Of a stretch of DNA of 64,000 nt, positions 59,239-64,000 are shown piece after piece (the first letter of the stretch is position 1; the number at the start of each line of letters is the position of its first letter). The notes below the pieces were generated by a model. That model saw only the letters and a program-made list of their open reading frames with translations, made no database searches and was not told the DNA's origin. The stretch is from Bacillota bacterium (GTDB lineage Bacteria > Bacillota > TC1): positions 1-64,000 of the forward strand of contig JAQUGR010000005.1 in assembly GCA_028683955.1 (NCBI GenBank). The letters are read 5' to 3'. A program made the position numbers and the translations under genes.

Positions 59239-59847
59239 TTACGGCGCCTCTGTTTTTTGTGCTAATGCTGCTTTATAATCTGCAGGTAATTCTACATTTA
59301 CAATTTCTATAGATATAATCTTAATACCATAACCATCTAATCTTGCTCTGGCATTATCTGTAATTGCTTGACCAAGTTCTGCACGCTTTGTTATCAAATC
59401 TTCTATCGTATACTTAGAAGTTACCTCCTTAATACTCTGACTCAAGATTGGCTTAATAATAGAATCAACATGAGTATTTAAAAACTTCAAATATAAACTC
59501 TCTGCCATTTTGCTATCAACAGTAAATTGAGTTTGAACAATCTGCTTTACTGCATAAATATCACTAGTAGCTGTAGTGTATAAAGCTCTAATATTTTGTT
59601 GGTTGATTTGTATTTTATTATAGAAATCAATACCTCTTAATCCATAATGGACTCCAGCTGGTTGAACAGCCACGATTTTCCCAAATCTTTCAACCACAGC
59701 TACTTCTGTTGCACTTACTAATCTAAACCCTGAAATCAAATAAACAGCCAAAGCTATCAGAATACCTAATATAATAACAAACTTTTTATTTTTACTCTTT
59801 TTCCCATTTAAGTCCAACTTATTAACAGCTTCATTATTGTTTTCCAT
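59239..59847 (-). CDS. SPFH-domain membrane protein, shortened copy
   Basis: The 202-residue protein is an HflC/prohibitin-like SPFH protein. It has an N-terminal span (KFVIILGILIALAVYLISGF), then VSATEVAVVERFGKIVAV, GVHYGLRGIDFYNKIQINQQ and LSQSIKEVTSKYTIEDLITK. It is a close paralogue of the next gene but stops at YKAALAQKTEAP, lacking the coiled-coil tail that SPFH proteins use to oligomerise. The function is unknown; the family scaffolds membrane microdomains and regulates proteases. Confidence 0.87.
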   Translation of the reverse strand: MENNNEAVNKLDLNGKKSKNKKFVIILGILIALAVYLISGFRLVSATEVAVVERFGKIVAVQPAGVHYGLRGIDFYNKIQINQQNIRALYTTATSDIYAVKQIVQTQFTVDSKMAESLYLKFLNTHVDSIIKPILSQSIKEVTSKYTIEDLITKRAELGQAITDNARARLDGYGIKIISIEIVNVELPADYKAALAQKTEAP

Positions 59848-59932
59848 ATTAATTCCTCCAAAAATTCTTTGTAATTAATATACTATAAGAACCATTAAAT
59901 TGCAAACCTACAAGTCCTGTTCTTAATACAAC

Positions 59933-59967
59933 AAAAGAGACTAAAGGAAAATCCTTCAGTCTCTTTT
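59933..59967. terminator. Terminator between the SPFH copies
   Basis: The stem AAAAGAGACTAAAGG/CCTTCAGTCTCTTTT has one mismatch and T runs on both strands. Each SPFH gene is thus its own transcription unit. Confidence 0.8.
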
Positions 59968-59995
59968 TTCATTCATAAATTTCTTTAATATCTAA

Positions 59996-60790
59996 TTATT
60001 GAACACTAGGTAATAACATATTCAAGCCACCATCTCCACCTTGGTATAAAGGCAACTTGCCATCCCACTTATCTAGAAACTCCTTGTATTTAATATTCTC
60101 ATCATAACTTGCAGAAGTAACCTTGTTTGCCTCAGCCTTAATTTTAGCTTCAGCCAATTCAGCAGTTGCCTTTTGTACCCTTTGCTCTGCAACTTTCTTT
60201 TGTTCTACTGCATTTCTATATTCTTCCGGCAATTCCAAATTCACAATCTGAATAGAAATTATCTTTATCCCATAACTTTCTAGTCTCTCCTTGGCTGTAT
60301 CAGTCATATTTTGACCAAGTTCAGCACGTCTTGAGATCAATTCCTCAATTGTAAACTTAGAAGCAGTCTCCTTGATACTTTGACTCAATATAGGCTTGAT
60401 AATAGAATCTGCATGATTATTCAAAAACTTCAAGTATAAACTCTCAGCCTTAGAGCTATCAATAGTATACTGAGTCTGCACTATCTGATTAACAGATTGC
60501 ATATCTCTAGTAGCCGTATTATATTCATCCTGGACGTTTTGTTGATTTATTTGTATCCTGTTATATACATCAATCCCCCTAAGACCATAATGGATTCCAG
60601 ATGACTTAACAGCCACAATCTTACCAAATCTTTCCACCACAGCAACCTCTGTAGGACTTACTTGCCTAAAGCCAGAAATAAGCCAAATACTCAAGGCTAT
60701 CAAAACTACAAATAAAGGGAACAATTTAGAATATTTTCCATTGCTCCCTTTAAAATTATACACATTCATAGGTTCATTACTATTTTCCAT
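59996..60790 (-). CDS. SPFH-domain membrane protein, full-length copy
   Basis: The 264-residue HflC/prohibitin-like protein has one span (LFPLFVVLIALSIWLISGFR), the SPFH core (SPTEVAVVERFGKIVAVKSS; IHYGLRGIDVYNRIQINQQN; LELPEEYRNAVEQKKVAEQR) and a coiled-coil tail (VQKATAELAEAKIKAEANKV) followed by DKWDGKLPLYQGGDGGLN. It is paralogous to the shorter copy downstream. Confidence 0.9.
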   Translation of the reverse strand: MENSNEPMNVYNFKGSNGKYSKLFPLFVVLIALSIWLISGFRQVSPTEVAVVERFGKIVAVKSSGIHYGLRGIDVYNRIQINQQNVQDEYNTATRDMQSVNQIVQTQYTIDSSKAESLYLKFLNNHADSIIKPILSQSIKETASKFTIEELISRRAELGQNMTDTAKERLESYGIKIISIQIVNLELPEEYRNAVEQKKVAEQRVQKATAELAEAKIKAEANKVTSASYDENIKYKEFLDKWDGKLPLYQGGDGGLNMLLPSVQ

Positions 60791-60851: not shown

Positions 60852-62075
60852 TTACAAGTCCCTTTCTTTAAGGTATTTAGGTATCATTACCAAATAATGA
60901 GTACCAGCAATAAACATACCCATAATAGGCAAATAATCAGTCAAAACCTCTCCAAGAGTAAAGGAACTCACAATCTCCCCACTACTTCCAATATCAATAT
61001 AGTATTGTGATGTAGCCTCTACTGCCTGTTGCTCTCCTACCCCACATTGTGGAGCGCTAAGAGGACAATGCCTGCTACAACCATTACAAACAAGCTTACT
61101 TAAATACTCCTCAAGAGTAGCAGGTGCAGTAGTTGTTGTTGTATCAGCCAGATCACTGGTTTTTGCTGGATTTTCTGATGGAGCATCTGGTGTAGTCTTT
61201 GTAGTTTCTGTAGTGATATATGTTGTTGTCTGTGTAGCCTTGTATTCATCAGCTGCCTGGATTGCCTGCTGTTCTCCAATACCACACTGTGGTGCAGTAA
61301 GTGGACAATGTTTATTACAACCAGTACAGTGTAGTTTACTTAAATACTCCTCAAGACTAACTGGTGCAGTAGTTGTTGTATCACTACTTACAGTAATTTT
61401 TTCTTCATCATCACTTCTATTTTCATGATTATCAGTCTCTTCCTCATCATGTTCATCATAATCATCACTTGTTTCCTCTTTACTAAAACCAACTGGTTGA
61501 ATGTCGCTATCTGTTTTATCATCAACCCCATTAACAACCTCAAGTAAATTACCACTAAGATCCTGACTAAAAGAACCCTTAATTCCAAAGATAACAATAA
61601 ATATTGTAACCACCCTTAAAAAATATGTTCTCCCCTTATTTAGTGTTTCGAGTCTAAATAGTTTTCTTAATCCTCCCATAATTTCCAACCAATGTAGACC
61701 TATATGGACTGATATTAAAATTAAGGCCAAATAGCTTAAACTATGATGCAGACTTGATACAAAACCAGTCATAGCAAAGGGGAACAATTCCTTGGAAATT
61801 AATATTCCAGTAAATATAATTCCAACCACAACCAAGGTTAGTAGAATATCAAGAACAATCCCTACTTTTGTTTTAGTTTTAATACTTTTTGAGTTGAATT
61901 TTAATAATACTGTTTTAAAACATTTAAAGTTCAATATGTTGTGAACAATAAAAAGAAACAGTATTCCAAGACCTAGTATCTCATGCCAAAGTATTCCTAC
62001 AAATATTATCTTCATTAATAGAACCATAATAATAGTCATAATCAGGTCTAATATATATTTATGGTGTTTTTTCAT
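60852..62075 (-). CDS. Cytochrome b561-like (DUF4405) membrane protein with two Cys-rich modules
   Basis: The 407-residue protein starts at the ATG at 62075 (AGGAG upstream). About four spans (residues 8-50, 72-95, 110-130, 152-168) carry His31, His45, His110/111, His124 and His128, suiting them to bind b haem as in DUF4405 proteins. An acidic Thr-rich outside segment follows. It carries two 43-residue modules (about 238-280 and 318-360) with Cys250/253/257/264 and Cys330/333/337/344, that is CxxCxxxCPLxxPQCGxGEQQA. A last span is at 377-397. It probably binds a metal cluster outside the membrane for electron transfer. The Cys module is not one I recognise. Confidence 0.8.
   Translation of the reverse strand: MKKHHKYILDLIMTIIMVLLMKIIFVGILWHEILGLGILFLFIVHNILNFKCFKTVLLKFNSKSIKTKTKVGIVLDILLTLVVVGIIFTGILISKELFPFAMTGFVSSLHHSLSYLALILISVHIGLHWLEIMGGLRKLFRLETLNKGRTYFLRVVTIFIVIFGIKGSFSQDLSGNLLEVVNGVDDKTDSDIQPVGFSKEETSDDYDEHDEEETDNHENRSDDEEKITVSSDTTTTAPVSLEEYLSKLHCTGCNKHCPLTAPQCGIGEQQAIQAADEYKATQTTTYITTETTKTTPDAPSENPAKTSDLADTTTTTAPATLEEYLSKLVCNGCSRHCPLSAPQCGVGEQQAVEATSQYYIDIGSSGEIVSSFTLGEVLTDYLPIMGMFIAGTHYLVMIPKYLKERDL
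61018..61144. repeat. Cys-module coding repeat, copy 2
   Basis: This stretch is about 80% identical by eye to 61258-61384, sharing the segment TTACTTAAATACTCCTCAAG and the GGTGCAGTAGTTGTTGT end. It encodes the second EEYLSKL-CxxCxxxC module of the DUF4405-like protein, so the module arose by internal duplication with a 240-base period. Confidence 0.8.
61258..61384. repeat. Cys-module coding repeat, copy 1
   Basis: This is the partner of the repeat at 61018-61144. It encodes APVSLEEYLSKLHCTGCNKH and the following CPLTAPQCGIGEQQA. Confidence 0.8.
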
Positions 62076-62200
62076 CTTATACACTCCTAGATTTAATTTA
62101 TCTTTAATATAATTCTACTAATGTACTGTGTAATATACTTGGACTCAAACTGAATATCTCTTGACAACTATGTGTTAATAGACTGAACCTTACATAAGAA

Positions 62201-62232: not shown

Positions 62233-64000
62233 CTATTTCTCTATTTTTGCTTCACTAATAATCTTGTCTGCTATATGTACTGGTACTTCATCATATCTGA
62301 CAAACTCAATATCAAAGCCACCTCTAGCATGAGTCATGGATCGAAGATCTATGGCATATTCAAATAGTTCACTATGTGGTGCTTCAGCTATTACAAGCTC
62401 GAAGCCATCTTCTAGTTGTTCCATTTTTAGAATCTTGCCTCTTTTTTTATTAATATCTCCCATAACATCACCCATATAGACTTCTGGCACTTTGACTTCT
62501 ATCTTCATTATAGGCTCTAGCAGAATTGGACTTGCTACCTCCATACCTTTTCTAAAAGCTAAGGCTGCCGCTAGTCTAAAGGCCATTTCATTAGAATCTA
62601 CCGGGTGATATGAACCATCATGTAGAGTTGCTCTAATATTAACAACAGGATATCCTGCCAGTACTCCTTTTTCTAGAGAGTCTCTTAGACCTTTTTCTAC
62701 AGCAGGGAAGAAGTTTTTAGGAACTGCTCCACCAAATACTTCTTCTTTAAATTCAAACATCTCATCGCAGTGTTCGAATTTTATATGAACATCACCGTAT
62801 TGTCCTGCTCCACCTGATTGTTTTTTATGTTTTCCTTGAACATCTGCTGTGCCTTTGATTGTTTCTCTATAGGCTATTCTAAATGGTATTATCTTAGCTT
62901 CTAGCCCAAAGGTATTTTTTAATCTATCCAGGATTATTTGTAGTTGAACGTCTCCTTGTCCTCCTATTGTTAGTTGTTTAGTTTCGCTGTTTCTAACAAC
63001 AACAAAGCTTGGGTCTTCTTCGTGTAGTTTATGTAACGCCGCCCCTATTTTTTCATCATCACCTTTATTCTTTGGTTCTATAGCAATGTAGAGGTTAGGT
63101 TGTGGGTATTTAATTGGTTTAAAGACCATAGGGTGTGCTTTGTCTGAGAGAGTATCTCCTGTCTGGGTTATGGTTAGCTTGGAGAAGGCTCCTATGTCTC
63201 CGGCTACTACTTCGTTAGTCTCCAGCTGAGTCTTGCCTCGTAAATAAAATAACCCGCCGACCTTATCCATTTTTTCTTTTGTGCTGTTGTATATTTCGTT
63301 TTCTTTTTTTATTTTTCCTGATATTACCTTAAAGATTGATATTTTACCAACGAAGGAATCGACTATGGTTTTAAATACTACTGCACAGTATGGTTGGTTT
63401 ACATCTACTGGTCTGTCTTCTTCCATATCATGTCTAAAGCCGTATTTTGCTCCTTCGTAGTTTGGTGCTGGCATGTATTCTAGGATTAGATCTAATAGTA
63501 GGTCTATGCCTATGCCTTTTGTGGTACTTCCTACTAATAGGGGTACTACTGTTCCGTTTAATAGTGCTGTATTTACTCCTTTTAAGAACTCATCGTGGTT
63601 AAATACTTCTCCTGAGAAGAATTTTTCCATTAGTCCATCGTCTGTGTCTGCTACTATTTCGGTTATTTCTCCAAATAGTTCTTCTACTTCTGCTACCATA
63701 TTTTCTGGTATTGGTATTTGTTTTCTTTCGCCACTTGAGTTGTCGTAGGCTACTTTGTTTATTATGTCTACTATTCCGTTAAAGTTTTCTCCTTCTCCTA
63801 TTGGTAGGGTAAAGGGTACTATGATTTTTCCGTATTTATTTCTTAATTCTCCAACAAGCTTATGTAAATTAACATTCTCCTTGTCCATTTTGTTGGCGAA
63901 GATTATTCTTGGTAGTTCTATGTCGTGTGTATAGCTTAATACTTTCTCTGTTCCTACTTCTATTCCTGATGAGGCGTCTACTACTACTAGGGCTGCTTCA
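62233..64000 (-). CDS. EF-G-like translation factor (second copy, runs off right edge)
   Basis: The open frame continues to the window edge: residues before the internal ATG at 63888 read AALVVVDASSGIEVGTEKVL and then RIIFANKMDKENV, which contains the G4 motif NKMD of an EF-G G domain. Downstream come domain II-V blocks (ALHKLHEEDPSFVVVRNSET; GGQGDVQLQIILDRL; GGAGQYGDVHIKFEHCDEMF; MGDVMGDINKKRGKI). Divergence from fusA in this window and GGQGDVQ in place of GMGELHL place it in the EF-G2/FusA2-like group, whose role is poorly known. The P-loop lies outside the window. Confidence 0.9.
   Translation of the reverse strand, partial: EAALVVVDASSGIEVGTEKVLSYTHDIELPRIIFANKMDKENVNLHKLVGELRNKYGKIIVPFTLPIGEGENFNGIVDIINKVAYDNSSGERKQIPIPENMVAEVEELFGEITEIVADTDDGLMEKFFSGEVFNHDEFLKGVNTALLNGTVVPLLVGSTTKGIGIDLLLDLILEYMPAPNYEGAKYGFRHDMEEDRPVDVNQPYCAVVFKTIVDSFVGKISIFKVISGKIKKENEIYNSTKEKMDKVGGLFYLRGKTQLETNEVVAGDIGAFSKLTITQTGDTLSDKAHPMVFKPIKYPQPNLYIAIEPKNKGDDEKIGAALHKLHEEDPSFVVVRNSETKQLTIGGQGDVQLQIILDRLKNTFGLEAKIIPFRIAYRETIKGTADVQGKHKKQSGGAGQYGDVHIKFEHCDEMFEFKEEVFGGAVPKNFFPAVEKGLRDSLEKGVLAGYPVVNIRATLHDGSYHPVDSNEMAFRLAAALAFRKGMEVASPILLEPIMKIEVKVPEVYMGDVMGDINKKRGKILKMEQLEDGFELVIAEAPHSELFEYAIDLRSMTHARGGFDIEFVRYDEVPVHIADKIISEAKIEK

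Follow-up and report, generated by a model that had tools for sequence, protein, structure and literature searches.

Two four-cysteine modules in the predicted outer loop of a DUF4405 cytochrome from a Bacillota bacterium

A gene at positions 60852 to 62075 on the minus strand of the window, i.e., the whole stretch of 64,000 nucleotides analyzed here, raises the question of what an unfamiliar cysteine module, present in two copies, might contribute to a membrane protein of the cytochrome type. The reading frame starts with an ATG at 62075 (a GTG at 62084 was listed by the ORF finder as an alternative start) and translates without interruption into 407 amino acids; no other DUF4405 protein is encoded in the genome. 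A preliminary description of the locus as encoding a membrane haem protein is borne out by the Pfam match of residues 74 to 129 to DUF4405 (PF14358; 33.9 bits versus a cut-off of 26.7) and by an Oscillospiraceae relative with six spans and four histidines, for which the binding of haem b was shown experimentally in 2024 (PMC11334425). That description had also proposed a four-span core and a final membrane span; the final span was recovered, but five spans precede the linker, giving a total of six. The five were recognized by hydropathy, and the sixth helix (residues 374 to 406) comes from the AlphaFold model. Pfam, hydropathy and the AlphaFold helices together delimit the five-span core (residues 8 to 170; 61566 to 62054, minus strand, as for all further features of this gene), while the alignment and AlphaFold place span 6 at residues 374 to 398 (60882 to 60956), followed by a basic, predicted cytoplasmic tail. 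Span 6 represents the usual final span of DUF4405 proteins.

When two haems are stacked in a membrane, their ligands are usually two histidine pairs located on two spans, with the members of each pair 14 residues apart. The predicted haem ligands of the 407-aa protein are His31 (61983 to 61985) at the outer end and His45 (61941 to 61943) at the inner end of span 2, and His110 (61746 to 61748) at the outer end and His124 (61704 to 61706) at the inner end of span 4, with 14 residues from the first to the second of each pair. In an alignment with 24 relatives, only H31, E32, G35, H45, S94, H110 and H124 were invariant; all 24 aligned proteins matched DUF4405 at E values of up to 0.1. Paired histidines had been noticed before, and two pairs are indeed present, but the conserved set of the haem type comprises these four residues only. 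They match the two-haem arrangement, in which, judging from their spacing, they would be placed around the haems, and the family assignment provides strong grounds for regarding the core as a putative two-haem electron wire through the membrane. The same four-helix, two-haem logic applies to the Ni-hydrogenase cytochrome b/cytochrome b561 family (PF01292), for which a weak profile match was obtained in 21 of the 24 relatives; however, the 407-aa protein scored 21.9 bits versus a cut-off of 30.1 and showed no significant fold match. No ferrochelatase was recognizable in the genome, and the haem would accordingly have to come from uptake or another synthesis route. With its six spans, four invariant histidines and a domain match above the cut-off, the protein resembles the DUF4405 cytochromes described previously (PMC11334425), from which it differs by having neither an apbE neighbour nor an FMN_bind domain and by carrying two C4 mini-domains in the loop between spans 5 and 6; neither "cysteine" nor "CxxC" appears as a term in the main text of the published account. 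A nearby apbE gene, as a link to flavinylation, is common among DUF4405 cytochromes without defining them. A structural relationship to the ferrosome cytochrome FezC, another haem protein, has been described (PMC11334425), and the linkers of some module relatives, which are rich in histidine (nine in L049), would agree with a role in metal reduction at the outer face.

The N-terminus, the loops between spans 2 and 3 and between spans 4 and 5, and the C-terminus contain three, seven, five and three Lys/Arg charges, respectively, and are assigned to the inside because they are rich in basic residues. The 209-residue loop that bears the modules is strongly acidic (40 Asp/Glu versus 11 Lys/Arg) and therefore probably lies outside, so that the charge distribution predicts a probable extracellular position for both modules. 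The loop begins with an acidic, Ser/Thr-rich and disordered linker (residues 171 to 237; 61365 to 61565), predicted to be extracellular from hydropathy and AlphaFold, in which Asp and Glu account for 35% of the stretch measured and the pLDDT drops below 50 at residues 185 to 235.

Module 1 (residues 241 to 288; 61212 to 61355), delimited by motif and AlphaFold, consists of a short helix, a C-x2-C-x3-C-x6-C loop and a long helix; its cysteine motif, CTGCNKHCPLTAPQCGIGEQQA, has its first cysteine at residue 250 and its cysteine codons at 61284 to 61328. It is separated by a Thr-rich, flexible spacer (residues 289 to 319; 61119 to 61211; translation and AlphaFold) from module 2 (residues 320 to 364; 60984 to 61118), for which motif and AlphaFold indicate the same mini-fold and whose motif, CNGCSRHCPLSAPQCGVGEQQA, has its first cysteine at residue 330 (cysteine codons at 61044 to 61088). 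The two modules thus follow the acidic linker with their first cysteines exactly 80 residues apart, as initially stated. A degenerate DNA pattern of the motif found two sites in the window, both within the modules, and none in 100 shuffles. An AlphaFold prediction made with 32 module sequences yielded a compact helix/Cys-loop/helix with a pLDDT of about 90 from residue 11 on, and the full-length model shows the mini-fold twice, on disordered tethers. The four cysteines and a leucine two residues past the third cysteine are invariant in all 32 modules, a set that was partly selected by motif, although exactly the same cysteine spacing is seen in nine modules whose alignment preceded the motif scan; the consensus beyond the cysteines reads CTGCxKHC[PS]LxxPQCxxG. 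The impression of an unfamiliar module was confirmed, since there was no Pfam match above the threshold and no significant match in the PDB by sequence or fold. The preliminary description would have been refuted by a match to an established zinc or disulfide domain of structural type with no redox role; no such match was detected above the threshold, and the nearest family, DUF3079, is uncharacterized. The earlier suggestion that CxxCxxxC might hint at haem attachment did not hold: in both window modules the motif is CxGCxxHC, with two residues between the second cysteine and the histidine, so that CxxCH is absent and standard attachment of haem c to the module is excluded.

The closest named family to the module, as judged by profile comparison, is DUF3079 (PF11278), represented here by three database proteins from plasmid records that were fetched with an approximate query sequence. 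Both share the C-x2-C-x3-C-x6-C spacing, the glycine in CxGC and a GxG past the fourth cysteine, and PF11278 recurred as a sub-threshold match in module proteins, all of which, among those scanned, remained below the cut-off (20.6 versus 27 bits for the 407-aa protein). A probability of about 70 to 74% was obtained with hhalign, and none of 60 shuffles with fixed cysteines reached the module-DUF3079 score of 27.1, the best one coming close with 26.1. In contrast to the modules, the DUF3079 proteins seen here are stand-alone beta-proteobacterial proteins of 72 to 75 aa with a tryptophan and no membrane domain, and their loop, CWGCxxYC-x6-CGNG, is flanked by conserved HPxHPER and HPxE motifs that are both absent from the modules. 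A common origin of the module and DUF3079 is plausible on the basis of these comparisons.

The preliminary description had further proposed that the module carries an Fe-S cluster relaying electrons outside the cell. A C-x2-C-x3-C-x(n)-C spacing is known for Fe-S ligands, e.g., from molybdopterin oxidoreductases, and the first half of the module is resembled by the sequence CxGCxNHC[SH]LTVN...GNxCE in two large proteins (L092 and L093), which we take to be acyl-CoA dehydratase activases, an Fe-S-associated group. This 13-residue match (CxGCxNHC[SH]LT) to the loop is weaker than that of DUF3079, and the fourth cysteine is spaced otherwise. The match to a ferredoxin domain of Pfam (Fer4_10) reached only an E value of 0.1, and no ferredoxin match to the module was found in the PDB. 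Moreover, Fe-S assembly is cytosolic and a folded holo-domain cannot pass Sec; because the modules are predicted to lie in an outer loop, beyond the reach of this machinery, we consider an Fe-S cluster very unlikely.

The internal duplication is real, as already recognized from the preliminary description: two stretches of 125 nt (61015 to 61139 and 61255 to 61379), 240 nt apart, are 79% identical, and the module copies have 72% protein identity over 46 residues. Of the 46 codons compared, 10 differ synonymously and 13 non-synonymously, corresponding to a dN of 0.16, a dS of 1.02, which is imprecise because it is close to 1 and based on a short stretch, and a dN/dS of about 0.16. The difference between dN and dS argues that both copies were kept by selection, and on this codon comparison the modules are under purifying selection. 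The conclusion that the duplication reflects functional importance is not supported, however, as the two closest relatives within the genus (G002 and G003) carry one module, and the pair is therefore not essential. Module 2 is the copy closest to the one module present in G003; two further genomes of the genus (G001 and G004) gave no match. Two modules were also present in L041, L051, L052, L054 and L046, the last in an ORF in which no DUF4405 core was seen, and this pattern suggests that doubling may have had more than one origin, a point for which the module tree is too short to be decisive.

Within a phylum sample of 399 genomes, 30 contained a whole-protein profile match and eight a strong module match, the latter always in proteins that also matched over their whole length, indicating that many DUF4405 proteins are devoid of the module. 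Scanning about 85,000 genomes for the motif retrieved 35 stretches, about 32 of which were judged real from their translations; L042, L065, L070 and L076 were discarded as chance or off-target pattern matches. Viral scans revealed no real member, and a plasmid search gave no match. Most carriers are DUF4405 proteins from Pelotomaculum/Desulfoscipio-type, Lachnospiraceae, Oscillospiraceae, Christensenella-type and Eubacterium lineages, in which the module stands singly at the C-terminus, or once or twice in the loop between spans 5 and 6. Soluble stand-alone carriers of 62 to 66 aa were found in L058 (with a MarR gene adjoining), L069 and L071, further small carrier proteins in L044, L063, L068/L075 and L072, and a MarR-family regulator with a C4 module fused to its N-terminus and no membrane part in L059 (4956 to 5663, minus strand). 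In the MarR fusion and the stand-alone proteins of L058, L069 and L071, the same loop possibly senses metal or redox state. Two carriers deserve a separate comment: the two-module DUF4405 protein on a contig labelled Candidatus Sumerlaeota (L051) has modules that group with the Christensenella-type one, which makes mis-binning or transfer likely, and in Peptococcaceae UBA2264 (L061, 6146 to 6421, plus strand) a DUF4405-module gene has seemingly lost its middle, so that the span 3 region is joined to the module, through decay or an assembly error.

The many DUF4405 proteins without a module, the variable number of copies and the existence of soluble and regulator-fused relatives would all agree with a purely structural or binding role, i.e., a zinc knuckle or a disulfide-stapled peptide docking a partner or the cell wall, while the haem core alone moves electrons. 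The strong constraint that extends beyond the cysteines, in a loop adjoining the haem wire, makes this explanation an unlikely one in our view.

The gene neighbourhood was considered as a functional clue and discarded. The cytochrome gene is followed, 61 bp past its end, by the start of a same-strand SPFH (Band 7) gene and then by a second copy, and an EF-G-like gene, recognized by eye, lies upstream (62233 to 63999, minus strand). The tandem SPFH/Band 7 (HflK-like) paralogues occupy positions 59239 to 60790 of the window (minus strand) and encode 264 aa and then a shorter 202 aa; G003 has a single SPFH gene at the corresponding place (L002). G003 (L002) retains the order EF-G/DUF4405/SPFH; G002 does not, its DUF4405 gene being followed by a response regulator and a kinase-like ORF. 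Outside the close kin, the neighbours differ from locus to locus, with no obvious redox partner among those scanned, and Rfam detected no RNA in the region. Genes for apbE and FMN_bind were found solely in an Rnf-type cluster on another contig (C5; L102, 258 to 5768), away from the cytochrome gene; since this cluster holds both an FMN_bind subunit and apbE, flavinylation is explained by Rnf. The Rnf-type genes are followed there by apbE, a gene for a NusG-like domain protein and a Gx-transporter-like gene.

Four invariant cysteines with CxGC pairs on a mobile tether, a predicted outer location and a supply of electrons through the membrane could also constitute a thiol-disulfide redox centre, in which the haem wire would reduce the CxGC pair and this in turn outer disulfides or other acceptors, comparable to a cytochrome-fed output of the DsbD/CcdA kind; four-cysteine sites that face outward may just as well form disulfides. 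The predicted helix-loop-helix is not a thioredoxin fold, however, the loop also occurs in soluble proteins without any cytochrome, and no Dsb-like neighbour was present among those scanned, so that such a centre appears improbable to us.

The reading that we prefer, though tentatively and with somewhat less than even confidence, is a two-haem b cytochrome with Cys4 mini-domains that are tethered at its electron exit and each hold a single metal, presumably Zn or Fe. One Zn or Fe on four cysteines is favoured because it would suit both the closely spaced cysteines and the existence of soluble relatives, and an autonomous metal site is in agreement with the recurrence of the loop in small soluble proteins, the MarR fusion and DUF3079. 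Electrons would enter, presumably at the cytoplasmic face, and cross via a haem between His45 and His124 and then via one between His31 and His110, if the ligands pair as predicted. On the outer face, the long, flexible, acidic tether would hold the two mini-domains of about 45 residues, each of them binding one Zn or Fe through its four cysteines. A mini-domain at the electron exit would provide the docking site for an extracytoplasmic acceptor or, if the metal is Fe, might itself be the last relay; an electron relay by the modules is possible. Against this reading speak the absence of a recognizable ferrochelatase, the variable neighbourhood with no obvious redox partner, the location of the apbE and FMN_bind genes in the Rnf cluster, and the lack of any match above cut-off to a named metal-site family.

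The cytochrome type has been described before, whereas the module is not named in the libraries searched; it is without a Pfam family of its own, which could be defined from the present alignment, and the soluble proteins with the same loop represent easy material for metal work. A more far-reaching proposal, which we consider rather doubtful, is that of an undescribed extracytoplasmic redox mini-domain (a rubredoxin-like single-Fe(Cys)4 centre or a thiol switch) tethered, as one copy or several, to a two-haem b cytochrome across Clostridia; it would provide a flavin-free electron exit from Gram-positive anaerobes, and its metal loop would recur in DUF3079 and in MarR regulators that possibly sense redox state or metal. 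DUF4405 cytochromes have been recognized only recently, and their outer electron acceptors are discussed mainly for flavinylated partners. A compact Cys4 domain is attached to DUF4405 cytochromes of many Clostridia, and the scanned neighbours include no flavin gene; this points to a second kind of output.
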